Shown here piece by piece: positions 5,205 to 16,555 of a stretch of 64,000 bases of DNA (positions are counted from its first letter, which is position 1; each line of letters opens with the position of its first letter). This stretch comes from Sphingomonas ginsengisoli An et al. 2013 (GTDB taxonomy: Bacteria > Pseudomonadota > Alphaproteobacteria > Sphingomonadales > Sphingomonadaceae), in assembly GCF_009363895.1 (NCBI RefSeq), contig NZ_CP045434.1, forward strand, positions 2,684,501 through 2,748,500, written 5' to 3'. The position numbers were made by a program, and so were the translations under genes. The notes beneath the pieces were generated by a model that saw only the letters and a list, made by a program, of their open reading frames with translations, ran no database searches and was not told the DNA's origin.

Positions 5205-5822
5205 ATGTCCGACGACCAACAACACTGGCAGCACGTCTATTCAACAAAGAGCTCGACCGAGATGAGCTGGTATCAGCCGACGCCAGCAGCCTCGCTCGAT
5301 GCACTCGATAGAATTGGCGCAACGCCCGCAGACAGCCTGATCGATGTCGGTGGTGGGGCATCGACCCTAGTGGATGCGCTCATCGAGCGCGGCTGGGACG
5401 ATCTTGCAGTGCTCGATATCTCTGAAGCGGCGCTCGACGCATCGCGAACCAGCTTTGGTAATCATGCGGCGAAGGTGCGCTGGATAGCCGAAGACATCCG
5501 TCTTTGGTTGCCGGATCGACGCTGGAGCGTTTGGCACGACCGAGCTGTATTTCACTTCCTCGTAAACGCGAACGATCGCGAGCGCTACAAGCAGAGGCTT
5601 CTTGAGGGCCTGTCACCTAAGGGAATTGTCATCATGGCGACGTTCGCTCTAGATGGACCTGAACGCTGCAGCGGTCTGCCTGTCCAACGTTACGACGTTC
5701 CCGCGCTTCAGGCCGAGTTTGGTTCTAATTTCGAACTCATCGAAGCATGGTCTGAAAACCATCTGACACCTTGGAGCAGTTCTCAGGCATTTTGCTGGAC
5801 AGTTTTCCGCACAGTGAGGTGA
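5205..5822 (+). CDS. Class I SAM-dependent methyltransferase
   Basis: About 205 residues. Motif I is LIDVGGGAST, followed by an acidic residue in AVLDIS (ribose-binding) and a DRAVFHFLV segment. It resembles small class I methyltransferases sometimes called TehB-like or thiol methyltransferases. Two adjacent ATGs (5202, 5205) follow an AGGA. It lies 27 bp after the DUF2474 ORF and probably belongs to the same transcript. The substrate cannot be read from sequence; a sulfur- or metal-linked substrate is only suggested by context. Confidence 0.8.
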   Translation: MSDDQQHWQHVYSTKSSTEMSWYQPTPAASLDALDRIGATPADSLIDVGGGASTLVDALIERGWDDLAVLDISEAALDASRTSFGNHAAKVRWIAEDIRLWLPDRRWSVWHDRAVFHFLVNANDRERYKQRLLEGLSPKGIVIMATFALDGPERCSGLPVQRYDVPALQAEFGSNFELIEAWSENHLTPWSSSQAFCWTVFRTVR

Positions 5823-5986
5823 TCTCCCTTTCAAGTGCCTGCCCGCGCATTTCAATGAACGAACGGCAGATCGATCTATCTAGCGCGATGAGGCGGACGG
5901 TCTGGTACCGGCCAGGATCAGCCAAAGCATGCTTTCGAGAGCACTCGTTGATTCTCCCGGCCGCTCATGGCCACAGGAGATGAACG

Positions 5987-6619
5987 ATGGGACACTCGAA
6001 CTATGATCCCGGGCAGGACTGCCGCGCTGCGTGGAACGCCGGTCGGAAGTTAGGCGCGAAGCGGCCACTCCATCCCAAGCAGGTTTGGGCCGTGCGCTTC
6101 TGGTTAGAACAGGAGCACCGACTTCGAGACCGCGCCCTCTTCGACCTTGCAATAGACAGCAAGCTTCGTGGCTGCGATCTCGTGAAGATCCGGATCGGCG
6201 AACTAGTGAGTGGCGCACGTATCCGCCAGCGCGCCATCGTCATCCAGCAGAAGACCGGCAGACCCGTCCAGTTCGAACTGCTGGAGCCAGCAAGGACGAG
6301 TTTGCTGGACGGGCTGGAGCGGCGTCGCGGTTCGCTCGACAACTTCGTGTTTCCAAGCCGGATCGACCACTCTTACCATATCAGTACGCGACAGTATGCT
6401 CGTCTGGTTGATGAGTGGGTGACCGCAATTGGGCTCCGGCGTGAGGAATACGGCACCCACTCACTTCGGCGAACCAAGGCGGCCTTGATCTATAAGCAGA
6501 CAGGCAACCTGAGAGCCGTGCAGATACTGCTCGGGCACACAAAGATCGAAACGACGGTCAGGTACTTGGGCGTTGAGGTCGAAGATGCCCTCACCCTAGC
6601 TGAAGCGACTGAGGTCTGA
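5987..6619 (+). CDS. Tyrosine recombinase (phage integrase family), short form
   Basis: 210 residues with the full catalytic set: Arg61 (KLRGCDL), Lys89 (QQKTG), His158 and Arg161 (HSLRR), His184 (LLGHTK) and the nucleophile Tyr193 (VRYLG). The usual N-terminal arm- and core-binding domains are largely missing, so it is a catalytic-domain-only type common in sphingomonad islands. AGGAG lies 10 nt before the ATG. It stands between the sulfide module and the DUF5131/TcmP pair and ends at a strong hairpin. It may mobilise part of this island, but no tRNA or clear att site flanks it. Confidence 0.88.
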   Translation: MGHSNYDPGQDCRAAWNAGRKLGAKRPLHPKQVWAVRFWLEQEHRLRDRALFDLAIDSKLRGCDLVKIRIGELVSGARIRQRAIVIQQKTGRPVQFELLEPARTSLLDGLERRRGSLDNFVFPSRIDHSYHISTRQYARLVDEWVTAIGLRREEYGTHSLRRTKAALIYKQTGNLRAVQILLGHTKIETTVRYLGVEVEDALTLAEATEV

Positions 6620-6627
6620 AGCACGCA

Positions 6628-6652
6628 GGTGAGCCGGCTACGCCGGCTCACC
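6628..6652 (+). terminator. Hairpin terminator after the recombinase gene
   Basis: A perfect 11-bp inverted repeat (GGTGAGCCGGC / GCCGGCTCACC) with a 3-nt loop begins 9 nt after the recombinase stop and is followed by a short T-containing stretch (GTTTCT). The U-tract is weak, so termination strength is uncertain. Confidence 0.65.
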
Positions 6653-6776
6653 GTTTCTGCGAAGAGCTGCCTCTCACCATTCAGGCTGAAGCGCGGTAAT
6701 CTCGTGAGCGGCCCTTCTTCAGCAGCACCTTACTATGCATTAGTGGGGAGCCGTAAACCTTTCGAAGGCGCCGACC

Positions 6777-7709
6777 CTACCTTGCACCATACTTCTTGAT
6801 CTGTGCTGATACGCCCTTCTTAATCAGATCGATCGCGCGCTCGTTGGAGTTGCCGCTCAAGAGAAAGAGCGAGAACTGACGCAGCTTCCGCCGTGTCAAT
6901 ATTGGAATCGGCTCCGACACGAAGCTGAAGATGGATCGAAGCCGTTCAGCTGCGAACTTCTCAACCTTGCCTGGGTCGGCATTGCGGCTTGGGCCTGTCG
7001 GTGGAGGGAGGTCGAACAGGTCCGTCGGAGCGGGCTGATAGTCGTAGAAGCGTGTCTCCCAGTCGGACGTGCCGAAGACCTCGTCGAGTGCGGCTCTCTT
7101 GCTCGGATCTAATGCGGCATGATCGTGACTGAGCTGGCGCAGCGCTGCATGCAGCGGAAAGAGGTACCAGACGTCGGCGCGACTAGTCTCCGCCAAGAAA
7201 CGTAACGTATCCCACCTGACGGACATGCCGTAGGGATCGAGGAAGACGACCGCCCGCTGCAGACCGCTTCGGCCATGCGCGACCCATGGTCCTCTGGTAA
7301 AGATCTCCCGGATTTGCTCGTTCGCATCTCCTTGGACGCAGCGAATGTCGCGGTTCGGGAAGTCGTTCCTGACCCGCTCGAGGGCGCTGAACCGGCCTGC
7401 GTTCTTCTCGATGAAAACGAGGTGGCGAAAAGGGGGATCGATCGCCAGCGCGCGTCGTGCCGATCCTTCGAAACGGGCTCGATCGAGAACGCCCCCGCCA
7501 ATGGTGAAGAGGCCACTCGGCCCACCGTCCACGGCTCGGTCGCCCGTACCAGCGAAGGCATCCACATACCAAGTTTCGAAGGGATCGGCGGGCGATGGCT
7601 TGGCCTTAAGCGCTGCGGTGTAGAAGTTTAGGTAATCTGAGACAGCGTTAAGCTTGATCTCAGTCCAGCTGCCGCCAAAGCGATGCTCTGCTAGTTCCAA
7701 GTTTGCCAC
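6777..7709 (-). CDS. tcmP: Three-Cys-motif partner protein TcmP
   Basis: 310 residues matching the TcmP family, defined by genetic linkage to the three-Cys protein encoded just upstream. Visible motifs resemble a Rossmann methyltransferase: YVDAFAGTGDR (like motif I) near residue 48 and VVFLDPYGM (like a catalytic DPPY) near residue 160. The C-terminal half has LRQFSLFLLSGN and a basic end (KKGVSAQIKKYG). The gene begins 73 bp after its partner's stop on the same strand, so the two probably form an operon. Methyltransferase activity is an inference from motifs; no substrate is known to me. Confidence 0.82.
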   Translation of the reverse strand: MANLELAEHRFGGSWTEIKLNAVSDYLNFYTAALKAKPSPADPFETWYVDAFAGTGDRAVDGGPSGLFTIGGGVLDRARFEGSARRALAIDPPFRHLVFIEKNAGRFSALERVRNDFPNRDIRCVQGDANEQIREIFTRGPWVAHGRSGLQRAVVFLDPYGMSVRWDTLRFLAETSRADVWYLFPLHAALRQLSHDHAALDPSKRAALDEVFGTSDWETRFYDYQPAPTDLFDLPPPTGPSRNADPGKVEKFAAERLRSIFSFVSEPIPILTRRKLRQFSLFLLSGNSNERAIDLIKKGVSAQIKKYGAR

Positions 7710-7782
7710 CGGGGTCTGTCTGAATTGTGCTCGAAGCAGAACGGAAAAGCATGAACTTCGATGCCGTGGGCGGCAGCGGCTA

Positions 7783-8523
7783 TCATGCGGCCCGGGAGGC
7801 GACTGGGACTGGGAGCTCGTTCCATTCCCGACCGTCTAAGTCGCGACCGCCCGTCTTAGGACGGATACCTCCCCACTGCTTGAAGAAGAACGCCACGCTC
7901 TGCTCGGCGCATTGGTCCCGGATCTCTCGTGCCCAATCGATCTTCATTGGCCTGGCACCAGGACCACTTTCGCCGCCGGCGATCACCCAGTGAATGCCGG
8001 TAAGGTCGACTGGACCGACGGCTCCGATCAGTGGCTCAACTGAAAGGAAGCGTACGGCGGCCGAAGCCTGACGGAGGTGGACTATCCGAGATGAGGAGCG
8101 GCCGTCCTCAACTGAGACCCCCAGCCAAATGTGGGCTGGAGGAGAGGCATTGCGGTACCGGCTATTCAGATACTCGCGCATCAGAGAGCTGCGCTTCGTT
8201 AGCACCTGGAAAACGTGCCAGTCGGCCCTCTCCATTGTGTCGAACACCAAGTCGATGAAGGTGCGCGGAACCTTCTTGTGGAACAGGTCACTCATCGAGT
8301 TAACAAAGATCATTCGCGACCGCTTCCAAGCAAGAGGTTGCGCCATCCGCTCCGGTCGAAGTGTTAAATCGAAGCCGTTCTCGAATGGGTGGCCGGGAAT
8401 TCCGCGCCAGCGCTCGGAAAACCGGGCAGCATAGCAGTTGTCGCAGCCGGCCGTGATCTTCGTGCATCCCGTGACCGGGTTCCACGTCGCGTCCGTCCAT
8501 TCAATTGCACTGCCATCTGCCAT
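7783..8523 (-). CDS. DUF5131 / phage Gp37-Gp68-like three-Cys protein
   Basis: 246 residues. The N-terminus (SAIEWTDATWNPVTGC) and cysteines C20, C27 and C30 (C-x6-C-x2-C, in GCTKITAGCDNCY) are typical of DUF5131, which is distantly related to radical-SAM enzymes and probably binds an Fe-S cluster. Later conserved pieces are FVNSMSDLFH, FQVLTKR, WLGVSVED, FLSVEPLIG, WVIAGGESG and FKQWGG. The gene is the promoter-proximal member of a two-gene unit with tcmP, beside a recombinase. The family occurs in phages and mobile elements; the biochemical role is unknown. Confidence 0.85.
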   Translation of the reverse strand: MADGSAIEWTDATWNPVTGCTKITAGCDNCYAARFSERWRGIPGHPFENGFDLTLRPERMAQPLAWKRSRMIFVNSMSDLFHKKVPRTFIDLVFDTMERADWHVFQVLTKRSSLMREYLNSRYRNASPPAHIWLGVSVEDGRSSSRIVHLRQASAAVRFLSVEPLIGAVGPVDLTGIHWVIAGGESGPGARPMKIDWAREIRDQCAEQSVAFFFKQWGGIRPKTGGRDLDGREWNELPVPVASRAA

Positions 8524-8709
8524 TATTCATCGGCCTTTAGAACGAACCATGAATCTGCCACGTCGCGAGACTTGGCGCAACGAGTTCGAACGGTGACAAT
8601 CCGCGACCGGACACAGAGCTAGATGAATGAGAGTCCGAATTTCGGCACCGTGAAAGCGGCTTCGAATGTCGGCTTGTGGGTCTTTCCTGCCGCGGGAGCG
8701 ACATGAGCG

Positions 8710-8739
8710 AATGTCTGCTTTCGACCCTAAGCAGACATT
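8710..8739. repeat. Dispersed 30-bp palindrome, copy A
   Basis: Perfect 11-bp arms (AATGTCTGCTT / AAGCAGACATT) around an 8-bp loop (TCGACCCT). It lies 21 bp beyond the 3' end of the merR-like gene. The same element recurs at 12935, 13563, 13948 and 16526. Confidence 0.9.
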
Positions 8740-8760
8740 CCTTCCGTTTGGTTGCTCAGT

Positions 8761-9165
8761 TCAAGGCTCAAAGCTAGCCAGTATAGGGCACGCGCCGCTC
8801 TCTGAATGGCTGCATTCGTGAGCGAGGCGCGTCAACGCATCTCGGGCTCGCTGAAGCTGCTCGATCTTGGTCGTGAGTGCTTCAACGCGCGCTAGGGCGA
8901 GTTGACGAGCTCGGCTGCGATCGTCGCTCTTATCAAGCTCTAGAAGTTCTCTGATTTCCTCAAGAGTGAAGCCGGCCGCTTGCGCCCGCCGAATAGAGTT
9001 TAGGCGGCGCACGTCCCCAACGCCGTAGCGCCTGATACCGCCCTCGCGCGTTGGCTCGTTCAAGAGACCTCTGCGCTGATAGAATCTGATTGTCTCAACG
9101 CTGACGCCTCCGGCTGAAGCAAGTTTGCCGATCGTCAACGAATAATGGTCTTGATCCTGTACCAT
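8761..9165 (-). CDS. MerR-family metal-type regulator
   Basis: 134 residues. The winged HTH (LTIGKLASAGGVSVETIRFYQRRGLL) is followed by a dimerisation helix and a C-terminal metal loop. Compared with MerR of Tn501, Cys118 and Cys126 (HECSHSESGACPIL) match C117 and C126, but the position of C82 holds Asp (LELDKSDD). The family twists a 19-bp-spaced promoter into an active form; such a promoter overlaps this gene's 5' end. The annotated ATG lies inside the operator, so the transcript is nearly leaderless or a later start is used. It probably controls the divergent glutaredoxin–MauE gene and the metal genes behind it. Confidence 0.87.
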   Translation of the reverse strand: MVQDQDHYSLTIGKLASAGGVSVETIRFYQRRGLLNEPTREGGIRRYGVGDVRRLNSIRRAQAAGFTLEEIRELLELDKSDDRSRARQLALARVEALTTKIEQLQRARDALTRLAHECSHSESGACPILASFEP

Positions 9166-9182
9166 GGTACGGACCCTATATA
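9151..9182 (+). promoter_or_regulatory. mer-like operator/promoter
   Basis: TTGATC (9151-9156) and CTATAT/TATATA (9176-9182) form -35/-10 elements about 19-20 bp apart. The spacer contains the palindrome GTACCATGGTAC inside TGTACCATGGTACGGA, closely resembling the mer operator (CCGTAC..GTACGG). The long spacer is the hallmark of MerR-activated promoters. It faces the glutaredoxin–MauE gene. Confidence 0.72.
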
Positions 9183-9212
9183 CCCGGCGAGTTGATCACA
9201 ATGGAGAGCGAC

Positions 9213-9971
9213 ATGTCCGACATGGCCAATCATCCCACCGCCGCAAAGCGAGCCGTACTCTACCGCATGGTGATGCCAACCCACACCTGTCCGTATGGCC
9301 TCAAGGCAAAGGACCTGCTTCGACGCTCGGGTTACGAAGTAGAGGATCATCACCTTACCACGCGGGACGAGACCGACGCGTTCAAGAGTGAGCACAACGT
9401 CCCGACGACACCGCAGGTGTTCATCGGGGGCGAACGGGTGGGAGGTTATGACGACCTGAGGCGTTTCCTAGGCAAGCAAGTAACGGATCCAAAGGCTACC
9501 ACTTATCGGCCTGTTCTTGCTCTCTTCACCATGACGGCCCTCATGGCCATGGCGGCGAGCTATGCGGTGACAGGTGACGTGCTCTCGGCGCGAGCCGGTC
9601 AGTGGTTCATTGCCATGTCCATGATCGTCCTTGCGCTACTCAAGCTGCAGAACGTCGAGACGTTCGCGACCATGTTCCTGAACTATGACCTGCTGGCAAA
9701 GCGGTGGGTGCCTTACAGCTACGTTTATCCCTTCGCAGAAGGTGCGGCTGGCGTGTTGATGGTAGCCGGAGCACTAACCTGGCTCGCTGCGCCGGTTGCC
9801 CTCTTCATCGGCACGGTCGGTGCGATCTCCGTCTTCAAGGCAGTGTACATCGACAAGCGTGAGCTGAAGTGTGCGTGCGTCGGCGGCTCAAGCAACGTGC
9901 CACTTGGCTTCATCTCGCTGACCGAGAACTTGATGATGATCGGAATGGCGATCTGGATGGTGGCGATGTGA
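9213..9971 (+). CDS. Glutaredoxin–MauE/DoxX membrane fusion protein
   Basis: About 252 residues. Residues 1-85 form a glutaredoxin fold with active site TCPYG and the TTPQVFIGGERVGGYDDL glutathione-binding segment. The rest is a four-helix MauE/DoxX-like membrane domain with a C-x-C motif (ELKCACVGG) near the end. ATG 9213 is chosen because GGAGAG precedes it by 3 nt; TTG 9192 and ATG 9201 are in-frame alternatives. It lies under the mer-like promoter and upstream of secreted metal-binding proteins. Likely role: a membrane-bound dithiol/glutathione redox step in metal or thiol homeostasis. Confidence 0.8.
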   Translation: MSDMANHPTAAKRAVLYRMVMPTHTCPYGLKAKDLLRRSGYEVEDHHLTTRDETDAFKSEHNVPTTPQVFIGGERVGGYDDLRRFLGKQVTDPKATTYRPVLALFTMTALMAMAASYAVTGDVLSARAGQWFIAMSMIVLALLKLQNVETFATMFLNYDLLAKRWVPYSYVYPFAEGAAGVLMVAGALTWLAAPVALFIGTVGAISVFKAVYIDKRELKCACVGGSSNVPLGFISLTENLMMIGMAIWMVAM

Positions 9972-10591: not shown

Positions 10592-12259
10592 TTGAGAATG
10601 AGTTTGCTTGTTGCCGTCAGCGCCTTCGCGCTGGCGCCAGCCGCCGCGCATGCGCGAGCGCAACACATGAACATGCCTGGCATGGCGATGCCTATGCCTT
10701 CCAAGGCCCCTGCTGAGAAAGTCACTACGAAAAAGTCCACTGCGAAGAAGAAGCCAGCTCCTAGGTCGACGGCTCCGACTAAGAAGCGTACCGCTGAGGC
10801 GCCGGGCGGCGGTAGGTCAGTATCCAAGAGTGTGGCGAAGTCGCCAAAACACGAGGCAATGGCTCACGGCATGACCATGCCGATGAATCATAGTTCGATG
10901 CAGATGTCGCCACAGACCCAGGAAGGCGCAGCGACGTCGCCCGATCACTCAACGATGCAGCACAGCATGACGGTGCAGATCCCGGCGGGATCGAGCAGCA
11001 AGATGCCCATGCCAATGGACCATTCGCAGATGGACCACTCGCAGATGGACCATGGCTCCACGGCTCAGATGAGTATGCCGATGAACGGGCACGGCAATCA
11101 CATGGCCATGAACGGTGCGTTCGGCTCCTATCCCATGGAACGGGAGAGTTCAGGGACGGCGTGGCAACCCGATACGTCCGAGCACGAAGGTTTAATGGCC
11201 ATGTCGGGCGACTGGACGCTCATGGCGCATGGCGTGCTCAACCTCGTTGCCGATCACCAGGGCGGCCCTCGCGGCGACGACAAGGTGTTTCCGTCAGGCA
11301 TGCTCATGGGCATGGCGCGCCGGCCGCTCGGCAACGGAACGCTGCAGTTCAAGGCAATGCTCAGCCCTGAGCCCATCATGGGCCCTAGTGGCTATCCCTT
11401 ACTCCTCGCCAGCGGGGAGACAGCAAATGGCCGCGACCGGCTAATCGATCGTCAGCATCCGCACGATCTTTTCATGGAATTGTCGGCTTCCGTATCGCAG
11501 AACATCGGCCGGAAGAGCAGTGTTTTTGTCTACGCAGGACTACCTGGCGAACCGGCGTTTGGCCCTCCAGCCTTCATGCATCGCGAAGCCATCATGGACT
11601 CGCCTGAGGCTCCGATCACACATCACTGGCTGGACTCGACGCACATCAGCTTTGGCGTTTTCACAGCTGGCGTAGTGCTCGATCGCTTTAAGGTCGAGGC
11701 CAGCCGCTTCAATGGCAGGGAGCCGGATGAGCACCGCTGGAACATCGAAACAGGTCAGCTGGATTCGACTGCAGTTCGGGTTTCGTGGAACCCCACTCGG
11801 ACCTTGGCTCTCCAGGGCAGTTGGGGTCACTTCGTGGACCCTGAGGAGCTTGAGCCCGGCGTGAATCAGAAGAGGTGGTCGGCAAGCGCCTTGTGGGCGG
11901 AAGAAGTTGCGCCCGGTTGGAAAATCGCCGCTACTTTGGCTTGGGGTCGAAAAACTGCACACGGGCATAGCGACGACGGCTATGCTGCGGAGGCCTCATT
12001 GAAGCATCAACAATGGACTGTCTTCGGTCGCGCCGAGCTGACGGAAAACCGTGAGCTGATCGATGTCGAGGATGGCCCTGCCTATCGCGTGGGCAAAGCT
12101 TCGCTAGGCGCCGTTCGCGACTTTAGGATTGCAGACCATCTCTCGTTCGGCGTCGGTGGGCTAGCCTCGGTCAATTTCGTCCCGGACGGCCTTGCACCCC
12201 TATACGGCCGGCATAATCCCGTCGGTACAATGGGCTTTGTCCGACTGAAGCTGAATTGA
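10592..12259 (+). CDS. Met/His-rich outer-membrane beta-barrel protein (CopB-like context)
   Basis: About 555 residues. A signal peptide is followed by a ~170-residue low-complexity part: HMNMPGMAMPMP, a Lys/Ala/Pro stretch, then HGMTMPMNHSSMQMSP and three MDHSQ/MDHG repeats, all typical of copper-binding segments. The C-terminal ~370 residues (SGDWTLMAHGVLNLV onwards, DRQHPHDLF, alternating aromatic strands, ending FVRLKLN) look like an outer-membrane barrel. TTG 10592 has GGAG at good spacing; ATG 10598 is the alternative. Probably copper binding or export at the outer membrane; not clearly orthologous to CopB. Confidence 0.72.
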   Translation: MRMSLLVAVSAFALAPAAAHARAQHMNMPGMAMPMPSKAPAEKVTTKKSTAKKKPAPRSTAPTKKRTAEAPGGGRSVSKSVAKSPKHEAMAHGMTMPMNHSSMQMSPQTQEGAATSPDHSTMQHSMTVQIPAGSSSKMPMPMDHSQMDHSQMDHGSTAQMSMPMNGHGNHMAMNGAFGSYPMERESSGTAWQPDTSEHEGLMAMSGDWTLMAHGVLNLVADHQGGPRGDDKVFPSGMLMGMARRPLGNGTLQFKAMLSPEPIMGPSGYPLLLASGETANGRDRLIDRQHPHDLFMELSASVSQNIGRKSSVFVYAGLPGEPAFGPPAFMHREAIMDSPEAPITHHWLDSTHISFGVFTAGVVLDRFKVEASRFNGREPDEHRWNIETGQLDSTAVRVSWNPTRTLALQGSWGHFVDPEELEPGVNQKRWSASALWAEEVAPGWKIAATLAWGRKTAHGHSDDGYAAEASLKHQQWTVFGRAELTENRELIDVEDGPAYRVGKASLGAVRDFRIADHLSFGVGGLASVNFVPDGLAPLYGRHNPVGTMGFVRLKLN

Positions 12260-13562: not shown

Positions 13563-13592
13563 AATGTCCGCTTTCCACCCAAAGCAGACATT
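13563..13592. repeat. Dispersed 30-bp palindrome, copy B
   Basis: AATGTCCGCTTT / AAAGCAGACATT arms with one mismatch and the loop CCACCC. It overlaps the stop codon of the 104-residue gene on the minus strand. Confidence 0.85.
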
Positions 13593-13947: not shown

Positions 13948-13977
13948 AATGTCCGCAATGGGTTGAAAGCGGACATT
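13948..13977. repeat. Dispersed 30-bp palindrome, copy C
   Basis: AATGTCCGC / GCGGACATT arms around ATGGGTTGAAA-type loop sequence. It lies about 40 bp beyond the stop of the 71-residue gene. Confidence 0.85.
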
Positions 13978-16525: not shown

Positions 16526-16555
16526 AACGTCTGCTTTGGGTCGAAAGCGGACATC
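16526..16555. repeat. Dispersed 30-bp palindrome, copy D
   Basis: AACGTCTGCTTT GGGTCG AAAGCGGACATC, an imperfect hairpin, begins 11 bp after the TonB-receptor stop, the same 3'-end placement as the other copies. Confidence 0.85.

Follow-up and report, generated by a model that had tools for sequence, protein, structure and literature searches.

What do two neighboring genes, one encoding a DUF5131 protein (phage Gp37/Gp68 family) and the other a three-Cys-motif partner protein (TcmP), do for the bacterium that carries them? The question is raised by positions 6777 to 8523 of a 64,000-nucleotide stretch of Sphingomonas ginsengisoli DNA (the window), from a genome that consists of a single contig of 3.04 Mb. 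Both genes are intact open reading frames (ORFs) on the minus strand, with DUF5131 (7783..8523, 246 aa, ATG start) first and TcmP (6777..7709, 310 aa, GTG start) following in tandem after a gap of 73 bp (7710..7782), the shared strand and the gap agreeing with an earlier, sequence-only reading of the locus. Our tentative answer, plausible though somewhat short of probable, is that they form a mobile two-enzyme nucleic-acid modification module used in phage defense. Taken as separate claims, it is probable that both proteins modify a nucleic acid and, with only slightly less assurance, that the pair has a defense role.

The upstream protein belongs to PF07505, the DUF5131 family (E = 4.9e-96; 321.4 bits against a gathering score of 28.9 bits). 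Its cysteines 20, 27, and 30 (C-x6-C-x2-C), already suspected to form a cluster motif related to that of radical S-adenosylmethionine (SAM) enzymes, are conserved in 76 of 76 aligned DUF5131 sequences, and the predicted fold is the partial TIM barrel of the radical-SAM superfamily, both of which bear out that suspicion. The top fold match is spore photoproduct lyase (SPL), a radical SAM DNA repair enzyme, with a score of 13.1, above viperin; RlmN is also among the radical-SAM fold matches. SPL is longer (340 aa), and no Pfam SPL model matches DUF5131 at E = 0.1. The canonical CX3CX2C motif is likewise absent, all 76 sequences having CX6CX2C, PF04055 gives no match to the window protein, and a sequence search of solved structures returned none at E = 1. 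The match to radical SAM mobile pair protein A (TIGR04471) is weak, at 66.3 bits (E = 2.6e-18), below the cut-off of 355. Records of several Mycobacterium phages or prophages call their DUF5131 protein an "RNA methyltransferase" (for example, L273 5001-5906), and one phage record names "spore photoproduct lyase" at the DUF5131 match. The first name is unsupported here, while the second fits the predicted fold.

The downstream protein exceeds the curated cut-off of TIGR04474 (E = 5.8e-50; 170.7 bits against 53 bits) and matches no Pfam family at E = 0.1. DAFAGTG and FLDPYGM had been taken for methyltransferase motifs I and IV, an assignment that conservation upholds, with D50, G54, G56, D158, and P159 present in 81 of 81 aligned sequences and motif IV reading DPY in 71 and DPF in 10. 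The predicted fold is that of a class I SAM methyltransferase, nearest RlmJ and Trm1, with K19, S83, D158, P159, and W181 as the residues assigned. RlmJ, the 23S rRNA A2030 m6A methyltransferase, shares with TcmP the predicted fold, the motif order, the GS motif, and a catalytic lysine and aspartate in register, and its K18, D164, W195, and, mostly, H6 have counterparts (15 RlmJ sequences from 16 stretches, selected for their motif patterns, of which one was checked against Pfam: PF04378, L030). TcmP differs in matching the RlmJ family PF04378 nowhere at E = 0.1, in carrying DPYG instead of DPPY where RlmJ motif IV is DPP(Y/F), and in having no counterpart of Y4; to our knowledge, RlmJ has no radical-SAM partner. 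A comparison of the two profiles showed no homology between them, and E. coli genomes yielded no match. Trm1, the tRNA G26 dimethyltransferase, is a near fold match that differs in target and domain make-up.

The top fold matches of TcmP are the RNA methyltransferases RlmJ, Trm1, and RlmCD (METTL16 is at rank 18), with non-RNA enzymes such as COMT close behind. Qualified in that way, this ranking also speaks for an RNA-modification cassette with no defense role, in which the pair would modify tRNA or rRNA and help its carrier in another way, for instance by conferring tolerance to ribosome-targeting compounds or nucleases, like Erm/Cfr-type enzymes. The presence of RlmN among the DUF5131 fold matches points the same way, as do the family-tested neighbors of the window pair (a tyrosine recombinase, a class I methyltransferase, a MerR regulator, and a glutaredoxin-MauE protein), none of which is a defense gene. 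The phage and plasmid contexts described below fit defense better, and we regard such a cassette as unlikely.

The two families are closely tied to each other. TIGR04474 exceeded its cut-off in 29 of 296 Sphingomonadales genomes and PF07505 in 47 of 296; taking one TcmP locus per positive genome, DUF5131 lay within the 1.5-kb flanks at 28 of 29, the last being at a contig end. In a wider set, the best 80 of 529 confirmed TcmP genome loci, which leans to close relatives, DUF5131 occurred within 4 kb at 77, and the other three comprised one with another three-Cys radical-SAM gene and two at contig edges. The pairing is beyond chance. The distance matrices of the two proteins also correlate (r = 0.40, largest of 1000 shuffles 0.14; 72 loci), which shows co-inheritance only, as expected for neighbors.

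Gene order is more variable, with 66 of the 77 paired loci convergent, five tandem with TcmP first, four tandem with DUF5131 first, and two divergent. The 3' ends overlap in 63 of the 66 convergent loci, an arrangement that would suit an antagonistic pair, one enzyme being harmful and the other restraining it, regulated by convergent overlapping transcription. Such antagonism would also agree with TcmP being partnerless only at the two contig edges of the wider set, and with Gordonia phages, where TcmP lies on the repressor strand and DUF5131 on the opposite one. The tandem same-strand genes in the window and at 9 of the 77 loci argue against it, as do the many viral loci with DUF5131 and no recognized TcmP, and we consider it very unlikely. 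In the window, the shared strand makes co-transcription possible; no sigma-70-type consensus promoter was found in 5800-9250.

Partners can be exchanged. At some TcmP loci, DUF5131 is replaced by other three-Cys radical-SAM proteins, and three-gene versions join a single radical-SAM gene to two TcmP genes, one short and one long (L062 9959-13004; L365 8986-11962; L366 8986-13239; L186 6814-9632). Those in rhizobial plasmids have DUF5131, whereas the viral-contig version has a CX3CX3C radical-SAM protein, and in L366 an IS3 transposase gene separates the two TcmP genes. On pSymA, the row reads helicase ORF (presumably Hna), short TcmP, long TcmP, DUF5131. The motif-X lysine was found in 75 of 75 longer TcmPs by joint alignment, a set in which some sequences are duplicates and some are short-type ORFs whose start was extended; a regular expression that recovered it in only 8 of 75 was too crude and was replaced. 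Two of three long TcmPs tested contain the winged-helix domain PF22560, which suggests nucleic-acid binding. A bolder proposal, and a rather doubtful one, is that the pair builds a hitherto undescribed hypermodified base for defense. A non-canonical radical-SAM enzyme would act with an RlmJ-like methyltransferase, the radical-SAM partners (CX6CX2C, CX3CX2C, or CX3CX3C) being interchangeable and the TcmP subunits, short or long with a winged helix, setting specificity. The loci with one radical-SAM and two TcmP genes can be cited for it, along with the prophage TcmP directly downstream of a repressor.

The G+C content of 6777-8523, 59.5% against 66.3% for the whole window, fits horizontal gain of the pair, and relatives are found in phages. 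Among the best 80 of 594 confirmed viral DUF5131 loci, a recognized TcmP lay within 2.5 kb in 35, none was seen in 31, and a further 14 without one were at an edge. DUF5131 is present in 49 Gordonia records, and in all five Gordonia phages examined from the top of the match lists (Fairfaxidum, BaxterFox, Easley, Bosnia, and Pytheas) a TIGR04474 protein above the cut-off is convergent to it, with an integrase gene within the examined stretch. In four of these phages TcmP and the repressor gene share a strand, with TcmP lying downstream at a distance of at most 4 bp, and in Pytheas one gene intervenes. An earlier impression that phages almost never carry TcmP, based on two records and one TcmP query, was misleading given these divergent TcmPs. 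No recognizable TcmP was found beside DUF5131 in the stretches of mycobacteriophages TChen, prophiT36-2a, and Bipper. The repressor-side position fits defense better than an RNA cassette without such a role. A parallel is offered by the Gordonia phage CarolAnn, which is reported to coexpress a proven defense pair with its repressor (PMC6426606). Genes 43 and 44 of CarolAnn (RexAB-like defense) are likewise a two-gene module beside the immunity repressor, and they are described there as a membrane protein and a weakly DUF4747-like protein, families other than DUF5131 and TcmP (PMC6426606).

For 7 of 11 matching plasmid records, those with gene tables at the match, we read product names around it, and this unblinded reading of a small sample gave defense-type genes within 9-10 kb in five. 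The Nostoc plasmid carries BREX and DarT-type genes; that of Leisingera, two Abi genes; that of Agrobacterium tumefaciens, DUF1837 and a DEAD helicase, which we take to be Hachiman-type; that of Rhizobium rhizogenes, a DEAD helicase, a type ISP restriction enzyme, DUF262, and a UvrD helicase; and that of Haladaptatus, DUF499, DUF1156, and a helicase, presumably with defense roles. The Acetobacter and Deinococcus plasmids have a DNA methyltransferase only, at the stretch edge in Acetobacter. Control regions about 60 kb away (30 kb for Deinococcus) held defense-type genes in two of seven (an AIPR protein and a reverse transcriptase), a count that excludes toxin-antitoxin pairs and an edge-cut helicase and becomes three of seven with the helicase. 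These neighborhoods, too, fit defense better than a cassette serving some other benefit.

We also compared Sphingomonadales neighborhoods, picking 140 near-pair and 140 control genes with a simple ORF caller, dropping two longer than 1080 aa from each set, and scanning 138 against 138. At E = 1e-10, 62 PADLOC families were matched near the pair and 16 in the control, counted as families rather than genes; many of the 25 near-pair families listed are GajB models that match one helicase. The near-pair matches listed include mads2 (two genes), DarT, DarG, GajB/RTasHel, PDC-M53A and B, and dGTPase/dCTPase, and the control matches include RtcR, IetA, TRIP13, DpdF, DrmC, PycC, and RTasPolA.

The observations are that both genes are intact and strongly paired, that the folds are predicted and the residues conserved, that other three-Cys radical-SAM proteins can replace DUF5131, and that the pair occurs in phage and plasmid contexts; from these we infer an Fe-S cluster, two chemistries, a shared substrate, and a defense outcome. 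TcmP would bind SAM and methylate a base at an exocyclic amine, which by analogy would be adenine N6, with K19 and D158 taking the places of the RlmJ catalytic residues K18 and D164, and W181 that of the base-stacking W195. C20, C27, and C30 of DUF5131 would ligate a 4Fe-4S cluster, and the enzyme would split a second SAM to a 5'-deoxyadenosyl radical, altering the same base or its neighbor. What the two enzymes make together, on RNA of the phage or the host (DNA being less likely), might block phage growth or mark self from non-self. RNA is favored because the top folds of TcmP are RNA enzymes. The two-component modification or defense role advanced by the sequence-only reading thus remains the best-supported one, now with RNA-methyltransferase and SPL-like folds, retained catalytic residues, and phage and plasmid contexts behind it. 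Its accompanying remark that the families are known only by co-occurrence has been overtaken by these folds and residues and by the catalog entry discussed below.

Two points qualify the mechanism. Adding the longer TcmPs to the alignment removes the RlmJ register for H9 and W181, and the preference for RNA is tentative because DNA is the substrate of SPL, the best fold match of DUF5131. The latter point favors orphan DNA self-marking, in which the pair would modify DNA and shield a mobile element from restriction as a counter-defense. Carriage of the pair by phages and plasmids is consistent with that alternative, as is the methylase content near the 31 viral DUF5131 loci without a recognized TcmP (among L283-L353), where the DNA-methylase families PF00145, PF02086, and PF01555 match 5, 3, and 1 of the 121 genes close to DUF5131, compared with at least 1 of 130 more distant ones (of 162 available; 25 of 37 matching families considered). 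Viral DUF5131 proteins without TcmP may thus have other methyltransferase partners. The RNA-enzyme folds of TcmP count against DNA self-marking, and single-stranded DNA was no substrate in the RlmJ study (PMC3814359); we judge it decidedly unlikely. A viperin-like activity, with DUF5131 producing an altered nucleotide that halts phage polymerases and TcmP methylating or buffering it, we find highly improbable, given that SPL has the higher fold score, that the top folds of TcmP act on polynucleotides, and that the winged helix of long TcmPs suggests nucleic-acid binding.

Returning to the defense module, the pair is a further member of an already cataloged candidate system. The two proteins match models A and B of PADLOC PDC-M41 (E = 9.8e-73 and 1.7e-101; models PDLC04635-04639) side by side in neighboring genes, in a scan of the pair and the recombinase with a copy without curated cut-offs, and DUF5131 matches PDC-M30B nearly as well. 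Because PADLOC lists both proteins, a public library already suggests a defense role, and PDC-M41 is itself a computational candidate there. Within open-licence full texts (supplements, preprints, and most subscription journals lay outside the search), we found no published test of the pair, including phage protection, and the name PDC-M41 did not appear in main texts. Our additions are the assigned folds and residues, the overlap of the convergent genes, the exchange of partners, and the position beside the repressor, none of which was found in print within the same scope. The mentions found were incidental: the TcmP gene SMa2243 is listed after the Hna defense helicase gene SMa2245 in a Sinorhizobium meliloti expression table (PMC12445080), and TcmP is among the S. 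meliloti prophage genes tabulated in another paper (PMC12429752).

Of the surrounding features, a short tyrosine recombinase and dispersed palindromes had been noted as flanking the pair; both are present, and the recombinase and the palindrome at 8709..8740 carry almost no weight for the system. The recombinase (5987..6619, plus strand, 210 aa; PF00589, E = 7.9e-19) is convergent to TcmP and is probably a mere neighbor, as many genomes of the genus carry relatives elsewhere, where the gene and its close flanks recur together. Counting relatives of this recombinase alone at E = 1e-20, one occurs near the pair in 1 of the 80 wider loci, in Sphingobium estronivorans (L065, identical to L209), in the opposite relative orientation. 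The REP-like palindrome upstream of DUF5131 (8709..8740) is rejected as a component because it is a dispersed repeat, with 33 genome sites at up to three mismatches and none for a reversed control pattern. Four sites of this type (AATGTC-GCTT...AAGC-GACATT) lie in the window (8709-8740, 13563-13592, 13948-13977, and 16526-16555), and short matches occur in other genomes of the genus. Beyond it, ORF and family searches identified a MerR-type regulator (8761-9165) divergent from a glutaredoxin-MauE fusion (9204-9971), followed by a Met/His-rich ORF (10592-12259), a segment that looks like a metal-resistance region.

If our reading is correct, a concrete, testable chemistry would be assigned to a pair that occurs in both bacteria and phages and has a relative on a plasmid of an archaeon, where TcmP stands beside different radical-SAM proteins; the predicted residues K19, D158, and W181 of TcmP and C20, C27, and C30 of DUF5131 would be direct loss-of-function controls. 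Radical-SAM modification of nucleic acids would then enter phage defense, beside the viperin-like enzymes.
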